From Deuterostichococcus epilithicus (taxonomy: Eukaryota > Chlorophyta > Trebouxiophyceae > Prasiolales > Stichococcaceae): 64,000 bases of DNA. Positions 966-46,301 of the stretch are shown piece after piece. Position numbers and translations under genes: made by a program. The DNA lies in the NCBI GenBank assembly GCA_033439295.1, contig JAVTLE010000007.1, positions 1,736,001 to 1,800,000 on the forward strand. The letters are read 5' to 3'. The notes beneath the pieces were generated by a model that was not told the origin of the DNA, searched no databases, and saw only the letters and a list, made by a program, of their open reading frames with translations. The number at the start of each line of letters is the position of its first letter. Within the stretch, counting starts at the first letter, position 1.

Positions 966-3900
966 TCAGGCGACCAGCACGCGGCACAGCCCCGGGTGCA
1001 CCTGAGCGTACAGCCGCGTGTACGGCACCTTCTCGCCGTCCACCACCATCCACGTATCGCTGCTGACCGGCTCCATGGCCAGCGCCGTCACCTGCACACA
1101 TTCTCAACAAGGTGTGCCTGGCAGATAGAAAGAGGCTGTCACCATCCAGGTGTTGCTGCTGACCGGCTGCGTGGCCAGCGCAGTCCCGTATAACACCGCA
1201 AGAGCATGATCCTGGGGCAACATGAATGGGGGACCGCACATGCTGCGATAATGGCAGAGCGACCTTGTGGCAGTGCAGCCGGCCAGGCCCGACACGAGTG
1301 CTGGCCCCAGGCACAACAGCATTCCTTCCTCAGGGCATGGCACGCTTGCACGCAGGAGTGCCACTCTTGGCCCCGCGCCAGAACAAGCCTTCGATGTTAG
1401 TTGTCGCCCGATGAGCTGCAGACAAAATCATTCGGTTCGAACCAATGCCGGTACCTGGCGGTAGTTTAAAATTGGCAGATCCAGGTGGTCGCCGTTCTCG
1501 CTCTTGATCATGAACTGCAGCCCCTGGAAGCGCGATGCCTTGCCGGTTGAGATGACGTCCAGGCAGCCTGCGGGCACAGCAGTGTTTGAGGTTTTCCCCG
1601 GGGGAAGGGGGGGGGGGTGTGTGGTGTGCTGGTGACGGCCACAGACACAAGCATGCGGCAGCAGTCGTCACGTAATTGCAGCTTTTGAACTGCACCGCAT
1701 GCCCTGCGCTCGGGAAGAAGGCGTGGCTTCTGTTCGAAGAATTGCTTAGAGTTGTTACACACCTGTGGCGAGGCCGGAGCGGGGCGCGATGTGGTAGGTC
1801 ATGTCCAAGAACGGCAGAGCGCACGCGGCAAACAGCGTCACGTCCTCGCTGGGTTGCTGCTGCCAGCCCTGCGGCGCGGGGCAGACACCCAGGCGCCGTG
1901 AGCCGCATGTCGGGAACGCGGCAGGGTGTGCCCCCAGTGGCGGCGACAAAACCCTCAGCAGCGGCAGGTTGCATGCGGCAGGGTGCATGAGGCGTACGCG
2001 GGGGCGGCTTCGCCAAGAAGCAAGCACGCAGGCGAGGCATGCTGCGAGTCAGGAGGTTGCATCCAGGGCAAGGAGAGTTCGGAGGTATACCCTGGAACCT
2101 GCAAGGCCCCACGAGGCTTCCCACCTCTGGCAGCCGGCCCTCCGTCCAGGCGGAGCCTTCGCTGAACAGGTCGTCCAGCAGCGGCGTCGGCGGCCCGCCG
2201 GCTGCGGTGGCGGCNNGTCCCGCCGACGCCGCCGACCCCGAGGACCGCTCCGGCGCGGCGCCGCCTGCATCGCCGGCCCGCGCCGAGCTGCCGCTGCCCT
2301 GCCGCAGGTCGTTGGTGCCGATCGGCTGCGCCTGCTCCTGCGCCTGCACTCGAGCGACTCGAGCCGTCAGCAGGCAGGGGAGCCGAGTGGCGCAGCGAGC
2401 ACAGGGTCGCAGGGCTGCAGTTCACACGACGGGAGGAGAATGGTGCCCTTCTCGAAGGTGGGCGGCGACGGGGCCGCCTGCTGGAGGCAACGACCCCAAT
2501 CAATGGCAGTCGCAATCAGCAGGCGGCACACGGGCTGTGTGGCAGTTTCAAGAGGACACAGGCTGCGACTGCGGCGGTCGCTGCGGCTGCTCCTGGTGGG
2601 GATTGCTGCATGGCCGAGCCGGCAGCTGGATGCACCACCGGCGATGGAAGGGGACAGTCATGCCGTTGACAGGTGCCAGAACAGATTTGTGTAAATCCCT
2701 GACCTGTGCGGCGGTTGCTGCGGTTTGGCCGTGGGCGGGCGGGCGCACCTGAGACTTGCGCGGTGTAAGGAGTTGTGAGGCGCTCGGCTGGTTAGCCTAT
2801 ACGCCCTCATGAACATGCGGGATGCCTTGCTCTGGTGCGACAGCTGCTGTGAAGCGTGCACACAGGAGCGTGGCCAAGCGCATGTGTCACCAACATGATG
2901 GCCTGAGACTCGAACAAGCTTCCAGCCGGTCTGCACCTGCTGCGCAATGCTCGTTGCGGCCTGACTAGCGGGTAGATACGCCATGCGGCAGCGGTGCGAG
3001 TGCTTCGTCAGGATCTCGTAGAGTGCGCCCAGTGTAAAGCGCATCGGCCCCATCCACCTGCAGGTGCAGTGACATGACGAAGCGGCCTGCAGGGGGTGGT
3101 GGCCGACGGACGAGAAGGCTCTGATCGCAAGACACTGGTTGTCGTGTGCCTGCCAAGAGGCCCGCAAGTGCCAAATTGCACGGCCGCCCCAGACTGCGCG
3201 CGCCAAGCTTGCAGCGTACATGTGCCCCACCTGAGGTGCTCTGTGCCGATGTCCAGATTGGCTATGAGGCCGAAGGTGATCGACAGGAAGGCGTAGCGCC
3301 GCGCGTGCGGCGGCTGCAGCACGCTGAAGATGTCCATCGGCGCCTCCCGCCCCTGAGCCGATTTCGCAGGCCTAAGCATGCAGTTCAGGGGTGCTGCTCT
3401 CCTGAGCCCGCCTGGAGGGCAGGCGGCGCCAGCGGCAGCGGCGGAAGTAGCGGCAGACAGCGGCCACCAGCTGACCAGCTCTGAGCTGAGCACTCACAGG
3501 TGTGCGTCGTGCAGGGCGCGCGAGGGCTGATGGAGCTCATGCTGTGGGTGCTGGGCGCATTGGCAGAGACCACCAGCGCCTACGCAACAGTTTTTGGGGG
3601 CACAGCCTCCAGCACTGGGGTCCCAACAACACCAACCTTGATGACAGCGTGCAGCGCGGTTGGCAGGTCCCACATGCCGGTGTTGGCCGCCAGTGCATTT
3701 GCGGAGCCCGCCGGCAGCTGCGCCAGCGGCACCTTGGCTGCCTCCTGCCAGTCCGGCCGCCCCAGCAGCCCCTGCGCATGGGTGAATGTCACGTTCGATG
3801 GTGCTGCGCTGGGGTGTCAAGGACAGGCACGGTGAGTGTCTCGCAAGAGTCCCTGATGCGGGCAAGCGTCTCATATCAGTATTGTTCGCATACGGCCGGG

Positions 3901-5380
3901 CCTACTTTTTCGCCCGACAAGCCGGCTCCAAAGGCCAGCGACAGCAGCTTCGCTGGCCACCTCATCTCTCACCAGCGATCCCTGCCTCTGCTGAGTGCGA
4001 ACAACAGCACATTGTCTGGCGCCAGGCCACACCATCCCGCAGGTATGGCGACCCTAAAGCCAAACCTTGCCTGATTCTCACAGGATCTTCACAGATTCGA
4101 CGAGACAGCCTCATGCACAGTGCCGTCGTCGCCCAGTCATTGCCCGTGAAGAGCAGCGGACAATGATCTAGTTTGTTTTGGTTAGAGTCACAAACTTTCC
4201 TGCAACGCCTCGTGCACGGTGCCGTCGCCGCCCATGAAGAGCAGCGCGTCGCAGGCCGCCAGGTCCAGGCCCGCCACGAAGTCCCCGGCGTCGCCCGCGC
4301 GCTGTGTCACGTGCAGCGTGTGCAGCACGCCCGCCGCGTCGAGCGTGCGCCGCACAGTGGCCTCGTACAGCTTCTTGGCGCTGCGGCAGGCAACAGCGGC
4401 CGTTCCAATCCTGAGCTGCTCTGCCGCTCACGACCCGGCATAGATTGCTGTCCGCACGCAAGGTGGCTGTGTGAACGCACTGTCGTGACATAGCCGTGCG
4501 TCCGTGGTCACTTGCCGTGGTCATAAGAGAAGCTGAGAAGCCCACACAGCATGCACAGCGCCAGCGCTGCCAAGCGCGCCGCAAGGCCGGCCCGCCGACT
4601 GCACGCAGGGCAGCGTCGCTTGCGGTGCCCGGGGCGGAGGAGGCACTCACGTGCCGCGGCCGCTGACGGGGTTGAGGATGATGACCATCCGCCGATGCCG
4701 TTCTGCGGCCCGCGTCACCGCGCGCAGCCGCACCGCATGCACAAAAGCGCGCGCCTCCGTGATGGAGTGGCATCGGTACACGCCTGTCTGGGTCAGTTTC
4801 CGCGTTGGCTTGGCGCTGGCGGCGCCGCGTAGCGGGCAGTACCACACCCGGAAGGCGTCCGAGCCCTCGGCCTGCGCGCCGATGACCTCGCCGCCCGCAA
4901 TCTGCGCGTGCGGCAAGCGCGCGCCTTTGGCCGCGATGGGGCGTCGAGACACAAGCCTCCGCAGCAAAGTGATTCTGCACTGCGCGCGCTGATTCAAAGC
5001 CGGGGCAGGCGAGCGGTTTGCAGTTGCTTACCTGCACATTTGCGGGCTTGCTCCGGGAGCAGCAGGACAGGCACGAGGCAGCGGTCGACTGCCGCTGCAC
5101 CTGCGCCAAACGCATAGCAGCAAGGTCACTCAGACTGGACTCGTCAGTGGCCACGCAGCCTGAGCACCAGACGCAGATTGCCGTTCCAGGACCTCACGTT
5201 GCGGGTCACGAAGCTGAAGGAGCCGTCCGCCTGCACAGAGGCAATGCCGCTGGCGCCACCAGGCCCTTCTACATGCACGCTGTGCTCTCCCAGACTGTGG
5301 TCCCCACCGCTGACTGCCAGCAGCTCTGCGTCTCGCGATGAGTCCTCCGTGAGGTTGAACGGCTCACGGACGTCATTCAT
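966..5380 (-). CDS. Sphingosine kinase (diacylglycerol-kinase-fold lipid kinase)
   Basis: Phosphorylates sphingoid long-chain bases to their 1-phosphates using ATP, normally at membranes. About nine to ten exons were joined. Exon 1 starts at ATG 5380 (MNDVREPFNLTEDSS). Exon 2 (4651-4901) ends in the nucleotide-binding ILNPVSGRGT. Exon 3 (4200-4380) carries the hallmark MGGDGTVHEALQ. Exon 4 (3637-3771) has GLLGRPDW and LPAGSANALAANTGM, the substrate-side motif. Exon 5 (3231-3352) has FGLIANLDIGTEHLR, and the next begins WMGPMRFTLGALYEI. A linker exon near 2090-2340 is Gly/Ala-rich and carries two ambiguous bases without breaking frame. The C-terminal exons read DMTYHIAPRSGLATG, then CLDVISTGKASRFQG, then EPVSSDTWMVVDGE and EVHPGLCRV-like AQVHPGLCRVLVA before TGA at 966-968. 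Length is about 450-500 residues, usual for the family. The splice after exon 3 looks non-canonical, and the last intron holds a copy of the last exon's start. Confidence 0.88.
1137..1186 (-). repeat. Intronic copy of the last sphingosine kinase exon's 5' end
   Basis: About 46 bp match the start of the terminal exon (1042-1091) with six mismatches in my hand alignment. Read in the exon's frame, the copy gives TALATQPVSSNTWMV, against TALAMEPVSSDTWMV in the exon. It lies inside the last intron, about 45 bp before the true acceptor, and has no open path of its own to a donor site. Confidence 0.75.
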
Positions 5381-5670: not shown

Positions 5671-7898
5671 TCACAGAGAGCGCCCGGCCGGCGCCGCATC
5701 AGGGGCGCTGGTGTCGATCGGCGGGTCATGGAACGCCGAGCGCGCCGGCAGTGCCCCGCTGCTGACCCCCCAGGCGTCCATGGACCTCTGCTGCCCGCCT
5801 GATGAGCCGTTGCCTGCCTGGGCCTGGGTCTGGGTCTGGGTCTGTGACCTAAGGTCCTCTTGCGGCAGAGGTGCTGACGGCTGCTGCCGGAGCGATGCCG
5901 CCTGCGGCGGCTGCAGGCCCGCAGCGAGCTGCAGTTTGATGTGCGGCAACGCTTGCAAGAGCAAGGCGAACTGCTTGGAGGACACCACTGCGAAGACGCA
6001 AAACAGATCCGTGAGCCATTGGCACGAAGTACATGATCACAAGAGTTGGAGGCGAGCCATCAGATGCCATCAATACAGAATTATCACGATACACTCTATT
6101 GTGGTCTCATGTTCTACTGCGTTGACGTGACTGCTCGTAGTGACTTGTTTCGCAACACAGAGAAGTAGTCGAGAAGGAAGCTCGTGTCCGAGTCCCGCTG
6201 TCACCTTGCATGGCCTCCAGCAATGCCTCGAAGTCACGCAGCTGCCCTGCCGCCTGCTCCGCGCCGGCCGCAAGCGCAATGAGTGTCTCTGCCTGCTTAG
6301 CATTGTCCTCCTGCACCTGCGGACGCGTCCACAAGCGGATGTCAGTTCTTTCAGTGTGGTTTTAACACCCTGAAGGTGGCTGGCAGTTGGGGGGACCCCT
6401 TTGCATTGGCATGGATCATGAAGCCGCGACGCCTAGAAGCTTCAACTGTGCTGGTCCGAGCGCCAGGTCTGGTTTGCGAGCGGTGTATTCTTACAGCAGC
6501 AGCCACCGTCTCAACGTTGCGTTGCTGTCCAATCAATCGGTTCCAGCCCCTGTACAACGGTTCGCCACCAAGCGCCTGTGGTGCGCCGACCCGCAGCCCG
6601 CCCCGCAGCCCCTGCGGGCGCCTCCTGCACATCCCGCCGCCGCCGGGTCGGCTGCCCCTGGTCCCAGTCCTTGGTTCGCTATCCGATGCAGATAGCAGCT
6701 GCCCAATGCTATGCAGACAGTCAGCCAGAATATGCAATTGTCGAAGCTCACCTGCCGCAGGGAGGTTCGCAGGTCCCGTGAGGAGACCCGCACGCGCAGC
6801 TGCAGTTTGCTCAGCTCTTTCCGCGCCTGCGCCAGCACCGCTGCCTGCTGCGCAGCCACCAGCTGCGCGGAACTTGCCTGCCCCGCCGCCACCGGCGACG
6901 GCAGCCCCGCTGCCTGGTCCCTGCAGCGTTGGCGGGCACCGTGTCAATAACTGCTTTAGGGTCACCCACGGCAGTGGGAACAGTGGCACAGTCAGCAACA
7001 AGGGGTGGCACATGTTGTGCTTAAGAAAACGTTGACAGCTGAAGAGATTTGCTGTAAATGTGGCTGGTAGACGTATGCAGAAGAACTGCCTGCCTGCCAC
7101 TTTCTAGCGCTTACGAAGCAAGCAGATGCCTTCTGGGAATGGCCCCGGCGGTAGAATTACCTGCGCCTGCGCAGCCAGCTCAACAGCGTGCCGCACAGCA
7201 GCGCCAGCATGACGGCCCACAGGCCGCCGCGCTCCAGGGCATAACTGCCCAGTAATTGCTGTCGGGACGGCGCCGCCGCCGCTGGCGCCGCATCCAGGTG
7301 CTGCACAGGCTTGTGCCGCCCGCGCCACCTGTTCGCCTGCTGCGCTGGCTGCTCCGCTGCGAGCCGGTGTTCGGTCACGAAGGCCGCCGAGGCGGCGGCG
7401 TGTTGCATGTTACGCGTCAGGGACGTGATCTCATGGCCCACTCCGGCGAGCAATGCAGCACCCTGCAGCGGCAGGTTTCAGAGGAGATCAAGAGCCCTCG
7501 TCATGCTGGCTCCAACGCTGCTTGATAGACCTCCTTTCAGTGAATGAATCATTCACCTCTCCAAGCAAGCCACAGCTGGCCTGATCATGGGGTCCTCACT
7601 GTGAGAATTGACCAGCTGCCGTGCTGCCAGCCTCAGGTCGATTCACCTGCAGCAGCTGCAGCAGCGCTTCAGCGCTCTCCCGCGCGCTTTCCTCTCGATC
7701 TAGCAGTGTATGGATTCCCTCCGCGAGGTCGTTGGCTCCGGCGCTGCTGCCTGCCGCTGCTGCGCGTTGACCAGAGCCGCATTGCCGGAGCCGCGCGGCG
7801 CTGCAACTTGGACGCGAACGAAACGATGCTGCCTTTGGAGGGTGAGGAGCTGGTATCAAAGTCGCCAAGCCCTGCCCGAGTTGATGTAGGGCCTGCAT
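5671..7898 (-). CDS. Hypothetical coiled-coil protein with one transmembrane helix
   Basis: Not recognised. Exons read on the reverse strand suggest one protein. A candidate start is ATG 7898 (MQALHQLGQGLATL). Next comes a helical exon with NDLAEGIHTLLDREESARES. An exon with HEITSLTRNMQHAAASAAF follows, containing a hydrophobic helix GGLWAVMLALLCGTLLSWL capped by RRRR. Two further helical exons read QARKELSKLQLRVRVSSRD and AETLIALAAGAEQAAGQL. The C-terminal exon starts SKQFALLLQALPHIKLQL and becomes Gln/Ser-rich before its stop at 5671. The heptad-like Leu/Ala pattern argues for coiled coils on both sides of a single membrane anchor. The start and some splice sites are unresolved. It shares a promoter region of about 250 bp with the divergent kanadaptin-like gene. 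Confidence 0.5.
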
Positions 7899-8152: not shown

Positions 8153-11100
8153 ATGGCAGACACCGAAATGCCTGACGCGGTAGCGCCAGCTCCAAGCGCT
8201 GATACCGGGCCCGCAGATCAAAACGATGGCAGCGGCGCAGCGCAGAAGCCTGCATCTGGTGCTCGGCCTGTGGACCCCGAGCAGCGCTTGACGGCGAAAG
8301 AGAGCAATGGACCGCTTCAGAAGCCACAGCAGAAGGCGATGATGCCGCCAACCATGCGGGCACCGCCCCCTAAGTTCAGGGCGCCGCAGCCAGTGGCGCC
8401 CAAGCCTGCCGCAGACGATGCCGAGGTCGCAGGTGCGGCTGCCCAGCTGCGTCAAGGCCCAGATGTGGCCGCATGCTGTGCATATTCAAGGACAATTAAA
8501 GCAGAAATGGTCCACACGGCAACCACGCTCGTTGTCAGCCGCAGCTCGTGCCAAAGCGCGCACGCTTGCGGTGAAGGCGGCAGCGGCTGCCGCCAAGTCC
8601 TCGCTGCCCGCGCAGCGCGAACGAGCCGTTGCAGAGGCAGCTGCAAAGGTGGGCAACCTGTATCTCCAGCGCTGGCATCCCAAATCAATGCATGACCTGC
8701 CGACTGCTCTGCTGCGCTCTGCTGCGCAGTGTGCCGATGATCTTCGACCGGCCCAGTACTTTGTCAAAACCGTGCTGCCCTATACGTTGCATGCCCAATA
8801 ACCACATCAGTGTCGACTGCATGTGTCGCTGCAGGCATATGCGGCCCATCAGCCAGCGGTAACTGAGCCAATGCAACCCACACCGGAGGTGCCCGCTGGT
8901 GATGAGACCAGTGCCACCGAGGCGCCGCAGCAGCCGCAGCAGCCGCAGCAGGCAAAGCCCGCACTGCAGGAATCCACGCCGCAGAAGCCCCGCGATGCGT
9001 CGACGTACGAGCAGCCCGCCTGGAGCGGCGTCCCGGAGGGGTGAGCGCCTCAGCTCCAGGCGCTGCAACTTGTGCATCCTGCGACCTGCCCACGACAGGG
9101 CGCACAACAGACCTCTTCACGTCATCCGACTCAGACGCATGCGACTCTGACGAGACCAACTGGGGTCTTGTACTCTTGGTTTTCGCTGCAGGGTGGAGTA
9201 CACTCTGGAGGAGATCAAGGGCGGCACAAGCCTGGGCATGCGGGACATCACACAGAAGGCATTCTACACCTTCGGGCGCACTCAAAACAATGGCAAGTTC
9301 GCCTGATGGCATCGTGCAACCTCCGGATGTTCTGAGCTCAATACTGCCCGCGGACACCGCTCATTCCGGCATGGAGCTTCCGATACAAGCCACAGAGTGA
9401 GGTGGCGTGCAGTCGAATGACCAGGACAACGAAGATCCCGAGCGCACAGGCTGCGACCCTCTGCCACGCTTGGTAACTGCGAAATGATGCGATGCCTCTC
9501 AACGAGCTTATCGGTGGCCGAGGGCATGGCGCACGAGTGCACAGAGGACAGGAGTGCGGCATCCATCCGAGCATCAACGCTCCAGCATCTCACTCCCTTT
9601 TTGCGCCGCAGACATCGTGCTGGAGCACCCCTCCAGCTCGCGGCTGCACGCGGTGCTGCAGTTCAACGGGCAGATGCGGCAGGCGTTCCTGTTCGACGCC
9701 AACAGCGCCCATGGCACATTCCTGAACCGCCGCCGCATCAAGTCCGGCGTCCATGTGCCCATCAGGTACAAGCGGTGTTCGCGTTTGCTGGTGCTGCCGC
9801 TTTGCAGGCAACCTCATCTGCGGTTTGCAGGATCTGATTGACTGGGAATCAACAGTCCAGCTCGAACTCACCCTGTGTCATCAAAGAGTTGTGCCAGCGT
9901 GTCGGGCCTCAGCCGAGCAGCAGCAGAGGGTTTAGGTATGCCGCACCAGACAGGCCCTGCCAGCACAGGCAAGGCTTGTGCTCTGCCAGTGCACTTCGGA
10001 AGCTGCCTCCATACCCTGTGCCATGCTACAGGGTGATGGCAACATGATCAACTTCGGGCACAGCACGGACGACGTCCACAACACAACCAGTCGCACTGAG
10101 CCAGTTGCACTGAGAGACGGTGCTCCCGCTGCAGGGTGGGCGACATGATCAAATTTGGACAGAGCACGCGCGACTTCCTGCTGGACGGCCCGGCAGAGCT
10201 GATGCCGGAGGAAGGTCCCTCCAAAGCGCAGCGACTGGAGGCGCGCCTGCTCAAGGTGCACTGTTTGATCGGGTGGTTGAGTCACTGATTGAGTGACTGT
10301 TTAGATTACTGATCGACTCCTTTACATTGTTCAATTGATTGATCATTCGATAGATGGGCTGACTCGTCCATCGCCTGTCTGACTGACACTGTCAGCTGTC
10401 CCCGTTCGTGTGGCAGCCTTCCACGGCCGGCTCCGTCAATCATTGGGAGCTCGCCGGCCGCCTGAGGGGGCCGGGGCCGGGTGCGGCGGCTTCCGCGCCG
10501 GGAGGCTGGCCGCCCTGAGGGGCACCGCCGGCGGCCAGTGCACTCCCCTCGGCTTTCTGCACGACACACTGCGAGGGCAGGTCCGATGCTCCGGGACCTT
10601 CAGACTTCAGCAGAGGGTTTTGCAGCTGTGTTGCAATTTTGCCGCCGCCGCCTCCGCAGGCCAAAGAGGCACGCCGGTCCAAGGATGATGCAGTGGCGGC
10701 GGCGCAGATGGAGGTGGCCCTGGGGCGCGGCGACGGCGCCAGCTGGGGCTTCGGCGAGGACGCCGCCACTGAAGAGGACGGCGCACCCTTCGTCGACTGG
10801 CGCACCTTTGGCGAGACGCGCGGCCTCACGGACAAGCAGGTGGGTTCCACAGTGCGGTTTCGTCATCAACGCGGCCGCACACAGTCTGGAGGGCGCTTCC
10901 AAGCCGCTTTCAGTCATATGGCTCGTGGAGGTTTGCGACGCACAGAGGCAATGCACCGTCTGGCTACCTCGCCCTGGAAATGTTATGGCGGGCGGCTGCC
11001 TGGACTGATTGTTGCCGACCATGCCCTGGGAGTGTCGGGGTCTTGCGCAATTGTGGCTGGTGCGGGTATGCTGACAAGGCGGGCTTCTGCACAGCCAAGC

Positions 11101-14100
11101 TGGAGCCACTGCACATCAAGGGCACCGGGACCTGAACACCAGCGCCTGGCCCTCCCCTGCCTGGTACTGCGATCTGCACTCAACTGCTCGTCATATGACC
11201 ACCCTGTCATGTGACGACAGGAGAAGCTGGCGACCAAGGTGCGCAAGAAGGAGGCGACCATCCGCAACCTGAGCACGGAGTGCGAGCGCATCCGTGCGAA
11301 GGGCGTGCACGAAGAGCTGAGCGCTGGGCAGGCCGCCACATTGTCGCGCAATGAGCGCACGATTGACGTCCTCAAGGAGGAGGTGCGATCCCAGCCCTGC
11401 AGGATCTGGAGGAGACGCTGACCCAGAGCCGAAACCAAAGACGCGTTTCGAGTTGAAATCACGGCTTCTGAATGAAGCTCCTGTTCAACTGCTGTGCGCC
11501 TGGAGGATCTGCAGGAGACGCCAAACAAGAGCCGAGACTCAAGCGTCCTCTTGTGTTGAATGGTCCGGCTGCTGTGCAGCTGGAGGATATGGAGGAGACG
11601 CTGAACGAGAGCGTGCAGGACTCTGTCAGCGGGCGCAAAAAGGCGGCCAAAGACGAGGCCGCCGCCAAGGCGGCCGCCGCCAGACGGCGGCGCCAGCGCC
11701 ACGAGGACGAGGAAGCAGGTGGTTGCTTGTCGGGTGTTTCGTGTGCGCTGGAACCGAACCCGTGCCCACAGCCGTATGCGACAGCCCACGCCGCCGCTGC
11801 GCAAGCGCGCGATGCAGCTCGACAGGGCCGCCCAGCTAGTGAAGATGCATGCTTCACTGGCTCAGTGGAGCAGCAGTGGCTGCGTCTGGTTGCCACTGCG
11901 TGTGCACCATCAAAACCTGATTGCAGGCAGTTCCCGCGGCTTTGCTCGCCAGCGCCGCGCCATGCGGTCGACCTCGAACCTGCGGTGACTCAGCTGCTGC
12001 CACCCCTCCATTTCTGATCCCCTTATGTGCGGCTGCGGCACCACAGGCAGCAGCGACGACGACGAGTTCTACGACCGGACGCGGGCCGGCGGTGCCGTCG
12101 TTGCCGCCGCAACAACAGCAGCAGGCCCGCTGCACAAGAGAGCCAAAAAGGAAGCGGCGCTGGACGCCGGCACCTTGTTCGCTCTGGTGGGACCCTTTCT
12201 CGACAGTGTTATGAGCCTTGTTGTCAGACACTGATGGAGCATTGGGAACACGACGGAATATTGCCAAAAACATTGGTTCTTCGAGCATGCTGCATGCGCC
12301 TGGTCAGGGCATGTGCGGCGGCATCGGCGCAGTCACAAGCGTGTTGTGGTGCGATGCCGGCTGGCCTCGGGGGGCATGGCAGCGTGCCGCCGCCTGAGCA
12401 GCTCCCGCATGCACGTGGGTTTCGCCCCGCATGCTTGTTACTGCACGTTTATGCACACCTGATGGAGAACCCTTGTTCGCTATATCGCGCCAGGTCGAGA
12501 CGCTCACGGCGGAGGCCGAGCAGCTGCAGGCCGCCGTCGCGGCCGAGGAGCGGGCCCAGCCCGGCTGTGGCAGCGCGCCGGCGNCCTCTGTCAGCGCAGA
12601 AGCANCCGTCGGCGCCACGGCCGCCGGCGCCGCAGCCGACAGCGCAGTGGCAAGCGGCGAAGCAGCCGCCGCCGGCGGTGCCGCGGCCGAGGGACGGGCG
12701 GACGCCGCAGCCGGCGGCGCGGCGGCGGCGGAGGCGGGAGCGGACGCTCTGGACGCCTTCATGAGCGACATGGCCAGCCAGCTGGAGGCAGACAAGGTTC
12801 GTTCGTCGATGTTGGAGCGCCCGGGCGCCTGGTGTCCGGTGGCCTGTGCTGAAGCATGTGCATGTGTGGCGCACCGCCTGCGTCATCAGCTGGACGGGCA
12901 AGGAAGGGTGGGTGGGGGTCGCACGCTCCCACCGCTGGGCAGGCTCCGGCTGTGCTGCGCAACCCGAGAGCAAGCGGCAGTGTGGCCGCGTCCGCTGCAC
13001 GATGCCTGTCCCGCCTCGTGCTGCAGGTGGGCTCGCTGCGTAAGCAGCTGGCGGCCGTGCAGCGGCGGGCTGCGGAGGCGCGCACCCTGCTGCGGGTTGC
13101 GGACCCGGACGGGTTCTTCGCGCCCAGCTCGGCGGCGGCGCGGCAGGCGTCGCAGCGCGCCGCGCACGCCGCGAAACTCGAGCGCGAGCGGGGTGAGGCG
13201 CGGGAGCGTCAGCGCGCGGCCAGGCTGGTGAGCAGGAGGCTCATCGTGACAACGACGTACATGTCGAGTCCCAACCCCGCCTCGCTGCAGTGTGGGCCCC
13301 GGGGCCTCGCATCATTCGACAATTGAGGGTCCCGTGTCGCACTGTGTGGCTCTGCATCCTGTGACATTGTGCGGATGCGCTAGATTGCGCCGCTCGCCGT
13401 CAGCAGCATTTGAGCCCCGGGACAAGAACCTCGGGAAGGCTGTTCCCGACCCCAGGCGTATTGCAAGCTGTCCAGAGTCTTTTACTGCACTCACTGCCGT
13501 TTACCGCGGCTTTGTGTTTGGCGCGCAGGCTGAGAAGCAGCGGGAAGCAGAGCTGGCGGCACGTTCGGCCGAGGAAATCGAGGAGGTGGAGGAGGAAGCA
13601 CCACCCACAGATCCTGCAGCGCCGCAGAGCGGCGGGCAGAGCGCGGGCCTGGCGCCAGGACTGACTCTTCGCAGGCAGCCCGGTGCCGCCGTTGCCCCGC
13701 CGGTGCCCGCTGCGGCGGCCGGTGAGCCTCCGGCGCTGGCCACGAGTCCGGCCCCGGCGCCCGCAGCGGCGATGGTCTCAGCAGCGGCGACGGCCAGCGA
13801 CGGCGCAGCGGCGCCCGCGGCGCAGCAGCCGGCGGTGGCTGCACCGGCTGCGGGCCCAGCTGCGAATGTGGCGCAGGCAGCGGCAGCAGCGGCAGCAGCG
13901 CCGGCTGCGCCGCTGTCTGGGCTGGAGATCCGACCGCAGCGGCCAAAGAAGGCCGCCGCTGCGGCCGCCCGCGCTGTTGGCAGCGCTCGCCCAGCAAAGG
14001 GGGCAGCGGGCAGCGGCAGCCATTATGGCGATGGCCGGCTGCTGTCACGCGCAGAGCTGGTGGCCTGGCATAGCGAGCAGCGGCAGGCGGCAGGTCTCGA

Positions 14101-26143: not shown

Positions 26144-29142
26144 TCAGTCTGGGGGCCGCGGCACCTGCAGCCGAGGAGGCCTCGGCTGCCGCACCAGCGG
26201 CTGCATTGCACTATTTGGGTCCGCGGCAAAGGACCAGGCGAGACCCCACCGTGACGTGCGCCCTGCACAGGACAATGAAGCGCAGTGGCGCACAGTGCGG
26301 ACACAGCAGACTCTGTGGCGGCGACGGGGCCAACACAGCCGGGCTGGTGGAGCGGCAGATTCAGACAGCCAGCAACCCAGCAGCCGGCTTGCAGTGCCGC
26401 CCAGCCCGACATTTCAATATGCCAGCTTTGTATGAAATCAGTGATGGCAGGCACCCTGGCTGTTTCTTCACCACCCACCTTGCGCAAACTCGGTTGTGCG
26501 CAGCGCCGCCGGGCGGTGCCGGTGCAGCGCGGCTCGCAGCGCCTTGAGGCTGGCCTTGCGCCCCAGCATGGCGGTGTACCAGTGCACCCGTCCTCGAAGC
26601 GCCAGGCTGTCTGCGACCATGGCGCCCACGAAGGCCGCCTCGCCGCCCGGGCACACCATCTCCGCTGCGGTGCCTGCGGCACGGCGCCTCGCACGCAGTC
26701 CGACAATGTGCAATGAGGCTTCTTGGATGAGGCGTCTGAGGTGCCTCTTGGACTGGCATGTCACGATGTTGCATTTGTGCCCCTCTCGAGGCGCAACACA
26801 TCCGGCAACGGCTGCCTTCCCGGCTGGCCCCGTCGCAGTCCAGCAGCTTGGCGGCGGCCCTGACCAGACAGCGAAGCCAGGGGGCAGGCCAGTTGTGCCC
26901 CCGCCGCTGGCATGAGTCCAAAAACGCTCGCCTGCGTGCGCGGTGTGCGGGTTGAGGCCCGCCTGCTGGATGGACTCAAAGAACGGCGGGTTGCACATGC
27001 TGAAGGCGAAGCGCTCGCCGCGCCGCACCGCCGGCTGCAGCACGCCGCGCGGGAAGGCCGGGTCCGGCGGCAGGAGGCCCGTCAGCACAGCCGCCGCGCC
27101 ACCAGCGGCGCCCGCCGCCGTCGGCGTGCCGTCTGTAGCAGCCTTGGCTTCCCGGTCCTCAGCGCCCGGGCCTGCAGCCGCGGCGGGGGGGTCTTGCGCG
27201 GAGTCGACGTCCTCGCGCACGTCCCGGACCTGGGCAGAACAGGAGGGCCAGGGCCGATCAAAGGAAAGGTGAACGGTCGCAACGCTAGAGCCGTGTCCCA
27301 GGCGTCGAGGCTGTTCCCCGGGAAGTTCGGGAGATGGGGAACCTCCACGATGGCATGGCGGCTGCGGCATGGTGCTGTTCAGGAGGCTCAAGAGTACCCT
27401 CCGAACGCATCAGGACGCGGGCGCACATGGCCACTGGCAGTGGAATCAAACGCCATGCAGCACAGCTAAATGCGAGCTGATCAGAGCGCGGCATGTTCCT
27501 CTCTGACCGAGCAAGTCCTGCGTGCCCCACCTCGATGAGGGGCGCCAGATGCGGGTTGGCGGCCACATTGGCGGTCCCGCCGGCAATCGCGACATCCGTA
27601 ACGTCGGCGGCCACAAAGCGCCAGCCGTGCTGCGCCGCGCCCAGCAGCGGGTATATCAGGTTGGCGCCGCAGCCGATGTCCAGGCCCACCACCTCGCCGC
27701 CGCCTGCGGAGGGGCGCCACGACATGAAGGTTTGGCTGCGCCGCTTGCAGCACGCACACGCAAAGCCAGCAACGGGTGTATCAGTTTGGCGCCGCAGCCT
27801 ATGTCCAGGCCCGTCGCCTTGCCGCCGCCTGCGGCGCCGGCAGTGTATTGACTCATCTGTGCGAGGCCTGCAGCGCGGACATGCAACAGCGCCAGTGCCG
27901 GAATGTCTGGCACGGCCATGGTTCGAATTGCAAACAGGACCTGTGGGCGAGGGGCAATCAAGCCAGCAGCGTGAGCTGCTTTGGCAAGGCAGACAGTGTT
28001 TTTGGCCGCACAGCAGACAGCTCAAGTGCTAACGCCTTCAGTAGCTGCAGCCTCGCAGCGTCCAGCTTACCAGGCGGGGACGACAGCGCGAGCAGATCTG
28101 CGATCCAGGCGATATAGTTGGCGCGGCCCGGCACCGGCGGGATGAGCTGCCTGTCGGCGACGTCCCAGGCCACCCCGTAGTGCTCCGCCAGCAGCGCCCG
28201 GGTCACGGCGCGAGACGCTGCCGCGCTTGCAAAATCTACCGCGCCGCTGCGGCCAGCGGCGCGGCCCTCTGAGCGCTGGCAAATGAGGAGGCGGGCAGTG
28301 TGAGCAGATCGCTCGCGGATTTTGGCTGCCGTGCAATTGATCTGGATTGACAGACCCCGCCGACAGACAAGGGTGCTGCTGCAATGCATGGCTATGGAAG
28401 AGCAACACGGACACACAGCATGGCCCAGGACCACTGCATGCCACAAAACGTCACCCTAGCTGGGTACCGGCACAGAGGACAGCAAGCGCGGGTCACCTGC
28501 CGTCGTGGCGCAGGCGCACGTGGCGTGCTAAGTCAGGGTGCCTCGCCGCCAGCGCCACAAAGTCGGGCTCCTCGTCAGCGTAGCAGTTGCCCGGGTGCAT
28601 GCGCGAGTTGCCGCTGCCGGGCGCCGCGACCCGCCGCCGCTTGGCGGCAGGCTGCTGCTGCTCGCCTGCGCCGCCGTCGCCCGCCAGCGCCGGTGCCGAT
28701 GCCGGCTCCACAGCCGAGCTGGCGCCGGCGGCATCTGCCTGTTCCTGCGACCCACGCACGGCCGCGAGGTGCGACGGCATGGCTGGTCCTATGAACTCCT
28801 GCGCTTGTGCAGGGTCCGCAGGAGGAGCAGCGCCCGCTGTTGATACCGTGGCTGGTGGCGCGGTGCTGTCTGATTTGTCACGTGCCGGCAAGCCGTCTGG
28901 AAGGATGGCTTGCAACGCAGAGATTGATTGCAGCAGCTCGTCCCGAATGGCGAGGCACTGCTCGTCATGCGGATCATCCCGCAGCAGCTGCTGTACCTCC
29001 GCCAGGCTGGACCTGTATTCCTCAAGCGCCGTCGCGGCGGCGGCCGGAAACTGCAGGCAATATGCATGCTGGTTTGGAGTGTCAATTCTTATTCAAACAT
29101 GAATCATCCAGTTTTTATGAGCATTGCATTGTTGCTCACCAT
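26144..29142 (-). CDS. METTL16-type RNA m6A methyltransferase with SPF30-like N-terminus
   Basis: METTL16/FIO1 enzymes methylate adenosine in U6 snRNA and some mRNAs, using SAM, in the nucleus. Seen here in order: MHPGNCYADEEPDFVALA, PPVPGRANYIAWIADLL, GLDIGCGANLIYPLLG (SAM motif I), WRFVAADVTDVAIAGG, SMCNPPFFESIQQAGLNP (catalytic NPPF), MVCPGGEAAFVG, WYTAMLGRKASLKAL, TTEFAQG and GRTSRWGLAWSF; stop TGA at 26144-26146. Upstream, in one open frame, lies ALEEYRSSLAEVQQLL with DELLQSISALQAIL. This resembles the N-terminal helix of the splicing factor SPF30/SMNDC1 or of ZGPAT. An Ala/Ser/Pro-rich linker carrying AAKRRRV, a likely nuclear localisation signal, follows. The ATG at 29140-29142 is the last codon of exon 1 and sits directly on the GTGAGC donor. 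No Tudor domain follows the SPF30-like part. Confidence 0.85.
27766..27834 (-). repeat. Intronic copy of the METTL16 SAM-motif exon start
   Basis: About 69 bp match the exon at 27642-27710 with about eight mismatches. The copy includes the acceptor and encodes GGGKATGLDIGCGAKLIHPLL, against GEVVGLDIGCGANLIYPLLG in the true exon. It lies upstream, about 55 bp from the real exon. It lacks the following 100 bp of exon, so it cannot replace it. Confidence 0.8.
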
Positions 29143-30724: not shown

Positions 30725-33700
30725 CTATCCATAGGTGCCGGGCCCTGCGAAATTTGGGCGCTGGGACTGGATGTCGGATGCCGGGGGCGGCGCCTCAGTC
30801 GGCTCAGACGCGTTGGTGTCGAAGTCAAACAGCGGCCGCTCCCACATGGTGTTGAAGGACCGTATGACCATCTCCCCCGTCCAGGTCTCCCCCGGCTGCA
30901 GCCTGCGCCAGGAGTGCGCGGTCTTTTCAGGACAGAGCACAGGGGCCAGCCGGAGGGGTGTGCCCGAGGCGCAAACGTCTCCTCAGGCAGGGGCTTTGCG
31001 CCAACGATGGGAACGCCTGGCGCTGCGGCACCTGCTCGTCCTCGTCCAACAACATTTCGTCCCGCACAAGCAGTGCACGAAGGCCTGGCCCTTCGCCGCC
31101 GTTGCCAGGCGAACAAGAAGCAGTGGCTGCTGCCACTGCTGCATACATTTGCCCTGCAAAGCAGCAGTGCAGCAGAGGCCACGCACGTGACGGGCCGCGC
31201 GACGCGCGCGCTGGGCACCGCCACGAAATGGCGGTAGGCGTCGGGCATGCGGGTGTACGGGTTGATGGCCCCTGTGTCCCTGAAGCCGCGCCGCATGTGG
31301 ATCTCGTGGTGCGACCGGTCCCCCGGGCACAGCTTCACGTCCGTGTTGTCCGTGTCCACGAAGATGGAGTTGATTGCGCGGGCTGCGAACAAGGGATTGT
31401 GCAAAGTCAAAGCTCAAAGGCGAGCAGCACGAGGGTCGGTCATTGCAGACCGGGCTGGTGGCCAGGGTGACGATGAGGGAGTGCCGTCGATGAAGAGGGT
31501 CGCTTGCAACAGATGCGGTGAAGGCTGCGAGTGCAGGGCCCCAGCTTGCTGGAAGTATGTGCCAGGGTGGTGGGTGCAGGACCATGCACTTCAGTGGAGG
31601 CAAAACAGCCGAGGGGGCGCGCCGCCAAAGTGCGCGACGCCGTCCAGTTGCTGATCCAGATGCGGGCAGCGTCCCGAGTGCGTACAACGAGTGCGTACAA
31701 CCACAAGGTTCGGGAAGGGCTGATTGGGGTTCAGGGGCGCACCGCCAAAGTGCACATAGTCGTCCTCCTGCTGGTCCAGGCGCGGCCTCGAGGCGTCCCG
31801 TGCGTAGTCCAGGATGTACTTGCCGCCCAGGCCCAGCAGCTTGACGAAGCGGGAGTGGTCCGGCCAGTCGCCCAGCGGCCGCACGGCAAAGTGCGTCTGC
31901 AGCGCGCTCGTGAAGGTGAACTCCGTGTCGTCTGCACGGGGCGCAGACAGGGCCGGGTCAGCAGTGCAAGCCCAGGGCGAGCGACCTGGCAGCCGTCGCC
32001 AGGCAGGCGAATGGCAGCGCTTGTGTGTGCAGGGCGTCAGGGCGTTCTGACAGTATGCAGGGTCGAGCGCTGCTGCATTTTGCCACAATTCGCGGCACTG
32101 CTGCAGACTGCCCACGGGAGGGGGCGGGGGCGGGGGGGACCGAATGCATCACATCACTGTGCTGTGGTCCGCTCAGGGGACTGGACTCTTACGGCCAGCA
32201 AGCCCGCGTGGCGACATGCTTGCACCGGCACGCCGCACCTGTGTTGGCAATCTCCAGCACGCAGCGCAGCTGCAGCGGGTTCGTGTCTAGCGGTTCCGAC
32301 ATGAAGTCGCCTGCGAAGGAGCACTGATGCCGCATCTCGAAGCATGCCCGACAGAGCGGGCTTCCCGTGTCATTGCGCCAGCAAGCTGTCCAAGCGGGCT
32401 GTTGCCATCGTCGTCTGCTGCCGAGCCAGTCCACCAAAGATCCCCGGCCACAACAACACACCATGCAGTCCTCTTGTATTCTGTTTGTCGACTGTGCCAT
32501 GCCTGGGTGTACCATGGAGGCGCAGCCATTCAGAAGCTTATTTGTGAAGGGCTGCACTCTTGGAGGGGCACAGCAAAATGATTACCAGACCCCTCGCCGG
32601 TGTTGAAGGCCGCCTGGCGCGCCTCCGCCTCTGACAGCACCGCCTCCGGCACCGGGTTCGGGATGCTGAAGTCTGGCGGGTCATCGCTCTCCATCAGCGA
32701 GATCTGCAGACAACAAATTACCTTGTTCATCCTCGGCTTGTGTGGGAACCCGTCAGCTCATTGGTGAGCTGCCCATGATGACGACTAAGGTTTTGACGTA
32801 CCGCTGCACCTGTGCCGGCCTTCGTTTGCCGCTGCTGCGGCTGCCTGTGCAGGCGACACAGCTGGCGTCCTCGTTGCCAAAGGCTGTTAAGACGCGGCGG
32901 CTCCGCAGCAGGCGAGCCCCGCCCCAGTCCCAGAGAGGCGGGCGCAGCCGGCGCACGAGCGGAGCACCCGGCTGCGTGCCCCAGTTCCACACCCTGACCC
33001 CTGCCGTCCGGCGCTGAAGGCAATNTGCATGCCCCCCCCCCCCCCCTTTCCCCCGCCATGCTCCTCAGCCAACAGCTGCAGGTCCGTCGGGCAGCAGGGG
33101 CGCTGCACAATTGCAAAAAGGGGCGGCCCGGGAGGCTCACAGTGTACATGGCCTCGAACTTGTGTGGCCACAGCGCCAGGGTGGTATCGTCTGACTCGGC
33201 AAAGAGAGCCACCGAGGGCGCCAGGTCAGTCGCGATGTTCGGGTCCGCGACACCCGTCGCCGCAATGGACCAGTGCATGCGCCGCAGCAAGCCGTTGGTC
33301 GGCAGCGTGCCGCGGCCGTACTGCGGGAACACCACCGGGATGCCGCCCCTGGACAGAGACAGGTGCACAAGCGTGCGTGAGTGTGACTGGGGCGCGCTCC
33401 CGCCCAGGCTGCGGTGCTGAGGAAAAGGTTGTGGTTGGAGCGCTCCACATGAAATCACACGAACTACAGCATCGGTCCGGACATGGGCATGGCGCTCAGG
33501 CAGTCTGCCAGTGGTATGTGCAAGGTGTTTGGGGGAGCCACGCACTGGATGGGGTCCAGGCCATCGAAGGTGTTGTCCGGCCGCACAAACAGGACCTCCG
33601 TGCCGTCCTTTTTCCGCCAGGATGTGATGTTGGCACCATGCAGGTACACCTCCAGCTCCGCGCCGTTTGGGTGGTGCAGGTACACTGCGCAGTTCGAAAG

Positions 33701-34900
33701 GAGCATGTGGGCAGCCTGCCCTGGGAATTGCCCGTGCTCGAGCCTTAACAGTGGCCTTCTCCAGGCCTGCTCGCAGTCCAGGCTTTCTGATGGGTGGTGT
33801 AGGTACACTGTGCGGCAAGCTGCGGCATCAGACTGGTATCAGATGACAGCAATCCCTCTTGTGAAAAACCTGCTCCCCAGCCTTGGAGGGAATGCTCTCC
33901 AGCCCTTCCCAAAGAAGTACTGCCCAGCATGCCAGGCCTTTCGACCTGTCTCTTGTCTGCCAGCTTGCCCGGGCTGCAGAATCCACATGCTGTGTGTGGC
34001 GCGCGTTCGGGGCTCCGAGGCAGCTGCGATGGCGGCGGCGGCGGTCCAGAGAGTCTTTGCCGCTGCTGAGCATGCCATCAGTACGATGCGAGGCATCTCG
34101 CCCAATCAATGCAGAGTAGCCGGCTTGGCATGCTCAAGCGGCAGCCGGCATACAACTCACCTGCTGGCAGGTCATTGGCGCCCAAGCCCACCTCCACGAG
34201 GTTTTCGATCTCAAACCGCTCCCGGCAGTACTGTACATACTCGTAGTTGAGGCCCCTGCGCAAACAGGTGATGCATCAGTGCAACTCCTGACAAGTTGGT
34301 GTGTGACAACCTCTGACATGCGCAGGTCCATGAGGATGCACCCCGATCACAGCTGTGTGAGACCCAGAAGACTGTGTGCTAGTGGACAGCTCTGGACGTG
34401 CGTACTCGATGTCTATGTCAAGGTCGTCTGGTGTCAGCTCCTCTTCGGACTCAGCGGTAGCGCCGTCAGGCTCCTGCTCCGCCTGCATTGTGTCTGAGCT
34501 CTCCGGCGGCTGATCCGCTGCTGTCGCTGCTGCTTGCCTCCATGCCTGACCCTGGGCACCGAGACAGGACCAATGAGTGCAAGACATCCGCAGGTGTTTT
34601 CAATAGCAGATGACGTTTGGTGCATGCCTGGAAAGCTACGCCAGGAATTGACTGGGCAGGGCAGCCAAACATGTCGGCGCACCCTTCGTCCCCAGAAAGC
34701 TCGGTTGCATTGTCCGCTGGTGCTGGCGAGCCCGCAGCTCCTCCGCCGGGCGGCGATACTGTGGACCTCCCCGCACTGAGCTGCTGCCGGTGCTGCCGCA
34801 ACCAAGCCTGCGCCAGACGCACAGTCTCAGTGAGAGCGAAAATGGTTGCGAGTCTGGTGCGAAAGCAGTTTCCGCGTGCACGTCGAGTGGCACGATGCAC
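30725..34900 (-). CDS. Glucose-6-phosphate 1-epimerase-like protein (aldose-1-epimerase fold), probable pseudoenzyme
   Basis: The family interconverts alpha and beta anomers of hexose 6-phosphates. The core exons are NLVEVGLGANDLPA (34160-34260), joined to VYLHHPNGAELEV and YLHGANITSWRKKDGTEVLF, then GIPVVFPQYGRGTLPTNGLL, GDFMSEPLDTNPLQLRCVLE, FTFTSALQTHFAV, LGGKYILDYARDASRPRLDQ, INSIFVDTDNTDVKLCPGDR, FVAVPSARVARPV and the tail QPGETWTGEMVIRS; stop TAG at 30725-30727. The family's LHTYF His is Gln here (SALQTHF), and the Glu of its FVCVE motif is Pro (FVAVP). These positions correspond to the catalytic His and Glu of yeast YMR099c, so catalysis is doubtful. The nearby WNP motif is also altered (INPYTRM). 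The 5' exons (34400-34900) encode an acidic low-complexity extension (ESEEELTPDDLDIDIE). The start codon is unresolved, and the left-most end given is approximate. Confidence 0.75.
31614..31685 (-). repeat. Intronic copy of an epimerase exon's 3' end
   Basis: About 70 bp match the exon 3' end and donor at 31734-31807 (shared CCGCCAAAGTGC, GATCCAG/GGTCCAG, GCGTCCCG), with about 20% differences. The copy lies in the intron that follows the exon on the reverse strand. The junction also contains GTGCGTACAAC twice in succession (about 31678-31702). Confidence 0.75.
33791..33819 (-). repeat. Short intronic copy of an epimerase exon start
   Basis: Twenty-nine bp match 33668-33696 with few changes, including the acceptor-like CGCAG or CACAG followed by TGTACCT. 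It lies upstream of the exon that encodes VYLHHPNGAE. Confidence 0.55.
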
Positions 34901-37794: not shown

Positions 37795-37795
37795 G

Positions 37796-43714: not shown

Positions 43715-46301
43715 TCAGCTGCTCGTCTGGCATGCAAGTGAGGTGCATCCTGGTCTCTCTACCCGCGCACTCCTCTCATGGACCAGGCGGCCCTGAGGCA
43801 GCAGCCGGTGCACTTGGCCGCCCGGCAGCAACCTGCCTGCCATTGCTTGGACGTTTCTAGCCATGCACACACCAGCTCCAGGCCCGATCTCCTTCAGGTC
43901 CGGTGTCTCCCTGCGGTCAGCCGGATGCGGCGCCAGGGGAAGGGGGCTGAGGTATCGAAAACACACCCACAGCAGGGCCGCGTGGATGCGCTGCTCCAGC
44001 TTCTCGCCGTGCGCCTGCCGCACCAGGCGCTCCGGACGCAGCCGGTGCTCCGAGTCCAGGATCGTCGCCGACGCCAGCGTCACAGAGACGACGACGCCCG
44101 TGCCGCTCGTCGCCGCGATAAGGAACATGATGACCATCTGGTACCGCGCCGCCTGCGCCCCGCAGTAGCACCGCTGCTCGTGTGTTGTTGGCAGGCAGAC
44201 ACATGCTGGAAACCACGTGCACCAGGAGCGTTGGGCGCTGATATTACTGTGCATCGAACGCGCTGGGGGTGGCGCGAAGTGGGTGCTGGTCCTGGCGCCA
44301 GCGACTGCGTGATGTTGGCAGTGCACTCAGGTTGCCAGGACGCCGTCAGGGTTTAAACGGCGGCCAACCAGCAGACACAGGCGAGCTCTCACCTGTGAGG
44401 GGTCGGAGCCGCCCAGGATCTGCCCAGTCATCATGCCGGGAATTGACACGATGCCCTGCAAGGGTGGAGGGGCCCACGCGTCTGCAGACAGCCAGACAGG
44501 CCGGTGGTGCGCGTGGGTGTGGGGACAGTCAGCTGACCAGGGACAGGGCGGCCTGACATCGGCAAAACTGAGGGGGCGGAGGTGCAGACAGTCGACCAGC
44601 CAACCAGCAGTCAACGGGGCGTCGGCATGATGCAAGGGAGCCGCACGGCAAGAGCGCACCACCACATTCATCTGGTTGAGGATGGGCGTGAGCGCCAGCC
44701 GCACGCACCGCGCGATGGTCTCCTTGCTGGCCTCCCACCGCGTCGCGCCCAGCGCCAGCAGCAGCTCAATCTTGTCCTTCCCTGCGGCGGGCACAGGTTG
44801 CCTTCTGCGGCTGGGGCAGGGTTCGATTTGGCGCAAGCCTGGCTCGCCGACCAGTGGGAGACGCCGCTCGTTCGTCACCAGGTCCGGACGCGCAACACCA
44901 CGAGAGCAGGTATAAACCAGGGCGTGGCACCGCCTGTGACTGGCATACACATCTAGTTCATCTGAGCCTGTTGCAATATGAAAGGCGCAGGCGCAAGGTT
45001 GCAGAAGGCAGTTTGTGCTTCAGAGTCTTGTCGGAGACAATTTAAAGGAAGTCCCCGAGCAGGACACGCTGAGAAGTTGTTCCCAGGGCGGCCGAGCTCA
45101 GGTGGCGCCGCATTTCCCCGTCGCACCTGTGGTATAGTCCTCCAGCAGCGCGGACAGCCCGACGCTGATGCCGCTGATGCAGTTGCCCAACAGCATGCCC
45201 AGCATGGGGACGAAGTACTGCGCCTCCCACCACGGCTTGGTGCGCACCTGCGTCGCAATCGTCAACGTGTCTGACTCGATCGGAAACCGCAGCTTCATAC
45301 CAACGAGCTGCGTCCTGCATGGGGACGAAGTGCTGCTGCCTGCCACCACTGCGGGTGCCAAAACCGCAAGGGAGAAAAGAGGAGGGAAGAGAGGGCGCAC
45401 CACAACGAGCAGCGCGTACGTCAGGAAGACGCTGCTGGAGAAGATGGTGCAACACAATACCTCCAGGAACATGCCCTGTACACGGCGGACGGATGCCATC
45501 AAGTCCCGGCACTGGCAGTGCGGCTTCAATCCGACAATTGTGGACGCACGACCTGCGGCTTCGCCATCTCCTTTTGCGGAGCAGGTGCACACGGGTGGGG
45601 GCCGCAGCCCACGCAGTCGCTGCAGGGCCTTTGCCCAAGCGCCCGGCACACTCGTGTCCCCGGCTCTCAGACGCGGGCAGCGGTGGACGTCATGTGTTGC
45701 CGCCGCTGCACCTGCTGCCGCTCCGGGAGCCAGCCATCCCAGCGGCCATGGCACGAGCGGACCACAACCACTCTCCAAGCACTCTGACGGCGCACCCGGA
45801 ACTTGTAAGCGGGCCGGGAGGAGGCCTCATAGGCGCCGACGAGGGCCATCACGAAAGCGTACGCGACGACGACGTACCAGCGGTGCGACAGGAATATTGG
45901 TACCAGTATGTAGCCCAGCACGCTCAGCTGCAGCACGCATCTGCGCCGGACATGAGGCGAGGCGCCGCATGAGGTGCAATCATTGCATGCAAGGACCAAC
46001 GGGGGCGTCTTTAGCACTTCGGACCGCCAAGCCGAGCGTGCATCATCGAGCAGTGTGACATGAGGCAGAAACTAGCGGGTCTGGCGAGTCTGCACGACGC
46101 GTGTCGAACGAGGCCGCTACGGCTATGTGGCGACAGGTCCCCATGCCGCATGCGGCAGGCGCTTGCATTGCCAAAGGCACCTGACGGTGGCGATGAGCAG
46201 CTGCAGCTCCAGGCCCAGGGACAGGTACACGGACACGACGGCGTTGACCAAAACCAGGCAGGCGCCCAGGCCCACGGCTCCCGCGCTGATGTAGTTGGGT
46301 C
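43715..46301 (-). CDS. UPF0014 membrane protein (FetB / ALS3-like ABC permease)
   Basis: Bacterial FetB is the permease of an iron-export ABC transporter; plant ALS3/STAR2 are homologues linked to aluminium tolerance. Exons in order read YISAGAVGLGACLVLVNAVV and LSLGLELQLLIATVR; LQLSVLGYILVPIFLSHRWY and YAFVMALVGAYEASSRPAY; GMFLEVLCCTIFSSSVFLTY; KPWWEAQYFVPMLGMLLGNC and GISVGLSALLEDYTT; GKDKIELLLALGATRWEASK and LALTPILNQMN; GIVSIPGMMTGQILGGSDPS; YQMVIMFLIAATSGTGVVVS and a tail ending at TGA 43715. The PGMMTGQILGGSDP signature is diagnostic and about six to seven helices are visible. The first exon(s) upstream of 46301 are unresolved; ATG 46807 is a candidate. The C-terminal 60 residues after VTLAS look non-conserved, so an additional terminal intron is possible. 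A cognate ABC ATPase is not in the window. Confidence 0.82.
45313..45358 (-). repeat. Intronic copy of a UPF0014 exon start
   Basis: About 46 bp match 45198-45243 (15 identical bases GCATGGGGACGAAGT, then CCACCAC or CCACCACT). The segment corresponds to the exon part encoding PWWEAQYFVPM. It lies in the intron just upstream of that exon's CGACGCAG acceptor. Confidence 0.6.

Follow-up and report, generated by a model that had tools for sequence, protein, structure and literature searches.

The lengthening of introns appears to have been studied less than their origin. Tandem exon duplications and mutually exclusive exons concern complete exons in which both splice sites are present and the reading frame is open. 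In the tandem genomic duplication model of intron gain (AGGT; Rogers, Hellsten), as outlined in the text cited here, the repeat spacing equals the intron length and the copies lie at the intron ends (PMC3443670). The passages of the potato report that deal with the RdRp gene describe a tandem duplication of intron-exon structure that runs from the end of an intron into the start of an exon; the duplicate includes the branch site and polypyrimidine tract and resulted in a new intron and an inserted exon, and an 83-bp tandem duplication within an intron is also mentioned (PMC4974935). Short duplications are known outside introns as well: break repair is described as yielding small tandem duplications (PMC8355091), and rad27/FEN1 yeast as gaining insertions with direct repeats on both sides, the rad27 insertions reaching about 100 bp (PMC5677150). 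In this study we analysed a 64-kb stretch of the green alga Deuterostichococcus epilithicus (assembly GCA_033439295.1, contig JAVTLE010000007.1, positions 1,736,001-1,800,000; this whole stretch is called the window), whose introns carry decayed copies of the splice-proximal edges of adjacent exons, and found such copies in the rest of our sample as well.

The genome comprises 46.8 Mb in 21 contigs, and our total sample of 304 kb consisted of the window and 24 stretches of 10 kb taken at fixed positions from contigs C1, C3, C4 and C5 (the labels L005, L010, L011, L012, L013, L014, L017 and L023 denote 10-kb stretches beyond the window). Self-comparison of the window at a score of at least 40 revealed 15 direct pairs at offsets below 500 bp, five at 2.5-3.5 kb, which belong to a tandem duplication, and two further away; no direct pairs were seen at 500-2500 bp and, self-palindromes excluded, no inverted pairs below 500 bp. 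In the 304 kb we counted non-redundant pairs with a score of at least 36 and an offset of 30-600, and obtained 82 direct and 6 inverted local pairs, whereas four dinucleotide-preserving shuffles in 250-nt blocks gave 0, 0, 0 and 0 direct and 0, 0, 1 and 1 inverted pairs. When the 82 pairs were assigned by majority class, 40 were exon-intron, 22 exon-exon, 16 intron-intron, 2 intergenic and 2 exon-intergenic, the exon-exon class taking in the low-complexity coding repeats of L012 and copies that the gene finder called exons. The spacing, determined for 83 pairs at a score of at least 34, was 80-180 bp in 59 pairs, 61-72 in 5 and larger in 19, and the offsets of the few intron-only pairs fell within the same range as those of the exon-edge pairs. 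Both the direct orientation and the short, consistent spacing are as local tandem duplication predicts. A few inverted local copies, some of them beside direct ones, occur at L005:6270-6607, L010:2454-2779 and L012:8343-9049. Exonic tandem repeats were seen at L014:8664-8802 and L023:1409-1564; their spacings, 72 and 66, are divisible by three, which fits duplications that remain coding.

Genes were predicted with a gene finder written for this analysis, a hidden Markov model that covers both strands, uses splice-site matrices and was self-trained on the data. It learned the donor consensus AG/GTGAG and the acceptor consensus YGCAG/G, and a later run over the 304 kb gave 104 genes, 766 exons and 662 introns. 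GC replaced GT at about 11% of the predicted donors in the whole sample. The initial annotation had proposed aligning introns with their flanking exons against controls, and when this was done (match score of at least 32 between an intron and an adjacent exon edge), 41 of the 662 introns scored, 6/132 in the window and 35/530 elsewhere; in 19 of them the matched edge was the upstream exon's tail and in 22 the downstream exon's head. Permuted controls yielded 1/3,972 and 0/3,972 (1/7,944 together) and reverse complements 0/662 and 1/662, whereas the far exon edges (exons ≥ 150 nt) yielded 0/199 and 0/209 at this threshold and one match each at a score of at least 26. These results confirm that the exon-edge copies are real and a feature of the whole sample, and exclude chance. 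The same density throughout the genome would correspond to about 6,300 host introns, as extrapolated from the 304 kb.

Gene-model error, chance, low complexity or an assembly artefact could in principle produce such matches: our models are home-made predictions from the DNA alone and contain errors (e.g., the 9-nt exon 3973-3981 and an exon start near 45.25 kb), and the assembly has 8 isolated N bases in the window. However, the shuffles contained no direct pairs and the permuted controls almost no matches, in the FHA and METTL16 genes described below the functional junction lies within a Pfam or PDB match, and the mainly third-position differences that allelic misassembly would leave were not seen. 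An artefact of this kind is thus hardly credible. One scan each of viral and genome contig collections turned up no relative.

The initial annotation had noticed exon-end copies in at least seven introns from five genes; in line with this, placing the self-scan on the gene models gave nine copies in eight introns of five genes, whose proteins match DAGK_cat/YegS_C, FHA, Methyltransf_10, Aldose_epim and UPF0014 (Pfam). The nine copies (exon/copy starts 1044/1140, 4207/4108, 10128/10025, 11580/11397, 11569/11489, 27641/27766, 31734/31614, 33668/33791 and 45199/45314) are 73-91% identical to the exon over 23-75 columns, at a spacing of 80-183 bp. In the gene for a DAGK/YegS-type lipid kinase (minus strand; DAGK_cat 6.5e-23, YegS_C 4.6e-9) the functional head of the last exon lies at 1044..1091 (predicted exon 966-1091), and the decayed copy of 1044-1089 at 1140..1185 in intron 1092-1454 (46 nt, 87%, offset 96). 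The same strand carries a functional exon tail at 4207..4234, which codes for the kinase GGDGT motif, and its decayed copy at 4108..4135 (28 nt, 89%, offset 99). Past the copy there is another exact 12-mer, shifted by 11 nt from the register; the position of the donor near 4209 is uncertain and the neighbouring 9-nt exon doubtful. In the plus-strand gene for an FHA protein, the functional acceptor and exon head at 10128..10178 lie within the FHA domain, since the match (2.9e-13, residues 8-69) spans the junction after residue 60; the decayed copy of acceptor and head is at 10025..10077 in intron 9766-10134 (79%, offset 103). A further functional acceptor and exon head of the same FHA protein, modelled at 11569..11612 on the plus strand, has two decayed copies in intron 11383-11579, the first (of the exon head at 11580; self-scan) at 11396..11435 and the second at 11489..11532 (44 nt, 84%, offset 80), and the spacers of the two look homologous in alignment.

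The remaining cases lie on the minus strand. The METTL16-type methyltransferase gene (Methyltransf_10 9e-76) has its functional acceptor and exon head at 27641..27709 and the decayed copy at 27766..27834 (69 nt, 88%, offset 125), which the gene finder partly called an exon; here there is near-register similarity on the intron side as well (27 nt, P 0.0025). When the predicted exon over the copy was omitted, the protein aligned without gaps with human METTL16 (6du4) across the functional junction. This supports, for METTL16, the claim of the initial annotation that the copies cannot serve as exons. In the aldose-1-epimerase-type gene, the modelled functional exon tail and donor at 31734..31806 are matched by a decayed copy at 31614..31684 in intron 31383-31742 (73%, offset 120), and the modelled functional acceptor and exon head at 33668..33690 by a copy at 33791..33813 in intron 33685-34160 (23 nt, 91%, offset 123); the Aldose_epim match (2.6e-16) covers residues 60-175, outside exon 31734..31806. 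In the gene for a UPF0014-type membrane protein (6.2e-69) the exon segment is at 45199..45236 and the decayed copy at 45314..45352 (39 columns, 87%, offset 115), a case that hinges on the exon start, placed at 45314 by the gene finder and at 45249 by hand.

Host introns had a median length of 317 nt in comparison to 202 nt for other introns (P 2.6e-8). The difference of 115 nt is near the median repeat spacing of 119.5 nt, and ordinary introns lengthened by 115 nt are predicted to have a median of 318. In a control for length bias, in which copies were placed in non-host introns without adding length, the host median exceeded the control medians of 257 (P 0.003) and 273 (P 0.029), obtained with different weightings. 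Most host introns are well longer than the repeat spacing, and subtraction of the spacing left mostly 75-400 nt. As the host introns are longer by about one spacing, beyond length bias, the duplications were probably added to already existing introns, which agrees with the suggestion in the initial annotation that introns grow by local duplication at exon edges.

That annotation had also pointed to intron gain by tandem duplication across AGGT, the Rogers/Hellsten model, which would place exon copies inside introns and accords with the donor consensus AG/GT. We examined 643 introns for an intron end repeating the upstream exon end, or an intron start repeating the downstream exon start, the two copies lying one intron length apart. 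Exon tails recurred in intron tails 20 times versus 13.6 expected at 14 or more matches, twice versus 1.0 at 16 or more and once versus 0 at 18 or more, a slight surplus but not a clear one; exon heads recurred in intron heads 14 times versus 18.8 expected and once versus 1.2 at the first two thresholds. Without a clear excess over permuted pairs, and with most hosts well longer than the spacing, AGGT gain was dropped as very improbable for these introns. An introner family was also considered. When the genome was searched with part of one window intron and with all of another, the best candidates scored were only the queries themselves, and the search with the 10 kb of L010 returned three matches of 59-89 bases; the family was rejected, no dispersed copies having been found for the introns searched.

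The growth of introns by local duplication is also backed by a pair of diverged tandem paralogues in the window, at 46.5-47.4 kb and 49.4-50.4 kb. A unit of about 127 bp, outside clear exons, is extra in the latter paralogue and missing in the former, and two tandem units are found at 49763..50000 (offset 137, 75% over 104 columns). This shows that local unit duplication, or unit loss, happens in this genome. The region contains tandem segmental duplications (46411-47938 / 49275-51354 and 48395-49058 / 51710-52406) with blocks of 68-76% identity, one block being 92% identical by blastn and 97% by global alignment, with a 36-nt gap. An element of about 56 nt occurs five times at 46943-47172 and 49787-50147, 136-174 bp apart in each paralogue, where the gene models are poorly supported. 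In L005, a three-unit tandem array of about 118 bp occupies 7819-8194 in a predicted intron; its units are similar over their full length (83%), unlike the exon-edge copies.

The explanation that we favour, with roughly even confidence, is an old wave of local duplications of about 115 bp, which lengthened existing introns and left remnants at exon edges. These short duplications, mostly with a spacing of 80-180 bp, would have arisen as local tandem-type events at DNA breaks or in replication, and by analogy duplications of the break-repair and FEN1 types would be suitable sources. A duplication across an exon-intron junction would leave one copy as the working exon edge and the other in the adjacent intron, and the host intron would grow by about 115 nt. 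Duplications within exons would be purged and both copies of those within introns would decay, so that remnants would be visible mainly at junctions, where selection preserves the exon copy alone.

Several observations count against this explanation. Length bias can account for part of the extra length of the host introns. The end of the homology near the junction is left unexplained, as a unit of such length should include tens of intron nucleotides; a neutral whole-unit simulation gave 63-97% of pairs with homology reaching beyond the first 15 nt of the intron, whereas this was observed in 3/50 (the edge set described below, from which 7/57 pairs with the copy in a predicted exon of at least 60 nt were dropped). 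In a register-free test the intron side was no better than the far exon side (5/41 each at P ≤.05). The copies contain only one stop in 634 codons versus 4.3-7.0 expected, the range depending on how the changes are split between exon and copy, which hints at constraint. Finally, near-identical young pairs are missing: the highest identity is 92.0%, apart from one 24-mer at 95.8%.

The edge was studied in 57 exon-related pairs (score of at least 36, offset up to 350, L012 left out). The homology ended 1-9 nt past the junction in 34 pairs, at -9 to 0 in 9 and deeper in the exon in 8; it reached 10-15 nt past the junction in 3 pairs and more than 15 nt in another 3. At acceptors (20 cases) exon positions showed an identity of about.77 and positions -1 to -3 of.70-.80; it fell to.35-.55 over -4 to -8 and was close to background starting with -9. 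At donors (11 cases) identity dropped after +5, acceptor and donor edges thus behaving alike. The simulated share of pairs with long intron homology was 63% at an exonic identity of.72-.78 and 97% at.94 and above. The simulation used 0.08 indels per substitution, and the rate measured in the window was 0.067 (16 gap events per 240 substitutions in the mostly non-exonic paralogues, the 127-nt unit included); a second paralogous pair gave 0.176, from 17 substitutions only. An indel-heavy simulation (0.5 per substitution, mean 8 nt) came near the sharp edge, and a 3-fold faster decay of introns reproduced it. Heavy indels or faster intron decay may therefore cause the edge in the model, although neither has independent support.

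Alternatively, the copying itself could have been bounded by the splice site: about 20-90 nt of exon edge with a splice motif of 3-9 nt would be copied into the neighbouring intron, and no intron sequence would be duplicated. One may conjecture that the boundary is set by the mechanism, the copied piece being, for instance, an RNA or DNA fragment limited by bound splicing factors, or a product of template switching through splice-like motifs. The concentration of homology ends just past the junction, the fall of identity beyond both kinds of splice site, their similar edges and the failure of neutral unit duplication in simulation all favour such copying. However, intron homology is present in a few pairs, continuation into the exon across the intron is at chance level (see below), and indel-rich or 3-fold faster intron decay can yield the same edge; moreover, we know of no mechanism that makes fragments of exon edge plus splice motif. 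We consider splice-bounded copying possible but on the unlikely side, and a past genome-wide wave of it, which would by extrapolation involve about 6,000 introns, rather unlikely. If such a wave did occur, some mutational process would have to recognise exon boundaries, at donors as well as acceptors, and make introns longer.

Homology on the intron side bears on the choice between whole-unit duplication and splice-bounded copying. It is absent in most pairs and kept in METTL16, one L011 pair (offset 122, exact 12-mer on the intron side, P 0.0025), the L013 and L017 arrays and the intron at 11.4 kb; pairs with t = 11, 13, 15, 41, 63 and 64 show it near register. An earlier permutation control had inflated intron-side homology, and shuffles that keep the local composition reduced the excess, to 7/40 at P ≤.05 in one run and to 8/49 in a banded test, in which the far exon side gave 2/49. 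With the two sides equal in the register-free test, the general case for intron-side homology is weak. When the flanks were compared with the exon across the intron, the copy continued into it in 1/36 cases at a score of at least 18 versus 1.1 expected, which indicates that spliced RNA was not the usual template; a spliced-RNA (complementary DNA, cDNA) template was therefore rejected as a general source. The single continuing case among the 36 scored at least 24, where permutation gave 0 expected. The spacer matched deeper exon sequence in 6/46 cases at a score of at least 20 versus 2.5% by permutation; the three cases at 22 or more were read as an indel next to the match, a GC-rich word and another copy of the same exon in the spacer, and an origin of the spacer from deeper exon was not accepted.

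The condition of the copies was compared with what decay and use would leave. The copies are about 15% diverged. In 1,990 aligned columns of exonic sequence, the mismatch was.159 at the first codon position,.128 at the second and.215 at the third; codons with a single difference were non-synonymous in 131 cases and synonymous in 98. This pattern fits a near-neutral decaying copy beside a constrained exon. AG was retained in 16/25 acceptors and GT/GC in 12/16 donors, which is about the neutral rate, approximately.72 being expected at 15% divergence by our own arithmetic. If the copies were in use, as alternative or poison exons or as decoy splice sites under selection, the shortage of stops would be explained, the exon part would be expected to be kept better than the intron part, as it is, and the 7/57 copies inside predicted exons would have a ready interpretation. 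However, the mismatches are not concentrated at third positions, the splice dinucleotides are retained at about the neutral rate, and the spacing is a multiple of 3 in only 15/57 pairs, which gives no sign of selection as coding repeats. Given that the codon-position pattern is near neutral, we did not accept the stop deficit as proof of function, and we regard the use of the copies as improbable. Tandem whole-exon duplication with mutually exclusive exons was rejected on similar grounds, as only exon edges are copied (the exonic part of the match has a median of 43 nt), the codons are near neutral and the spacing keeps the frame in 15/57 pairs.

Judged by the differences at the first two codon positions, the pairs are compatible with one common age (chi2 28.4, df 45), with the caveat that the oldest pairs tend to escape detection. 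Had the process run steadily, young pairs should be numerous; hence either the process has stopped, or young pairs were lost or collapsed in the assembly. With near-identical pairs missing, an ongoing process is not supported, and the idea in the initial annotation that such events have been frequent in this lineage is upheld for the past and not for the present.

Among the matches listed in the literature, from which subscription journals are mostly absent, the exon-edge copy pattern was unreported, which is weak evidence that it is absent from print. As selection keeps the exon copy from changing, the source of the added piece is still recognisable, and dozens of introns per 300 kb thus preserve a trace of their growth that can be dated. 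The sharp edge, if upheld in relatives, would suggest a mutational process tied to splicing. Tandem exon duplication resembles the copies in placing exon-like sequence in an adjacent intron, but in the alga this sequence is a decayed exon edge only. With the break-repair and rad27/FEN1 events the copies share the character of short, local direct duplications, whereas those events, in the passages of the two papers that describe them, have no tie to splice sites (PMC8355091, PMC5677150). Local duplication of exon sequence is likewise common to the AGGT model as outlined in the cited text, but the end copies at intron-length spacing that it predicts show no clear excess here (PMC3443670). The duplication described for potato RdRp, across an intron tail and an exon head, is similar in its position; in contrast to what the passages on that gene report, the copies in the alga appear unused, mostly lack intron-side homology and number dozens in 304 kb (PMC4974935).

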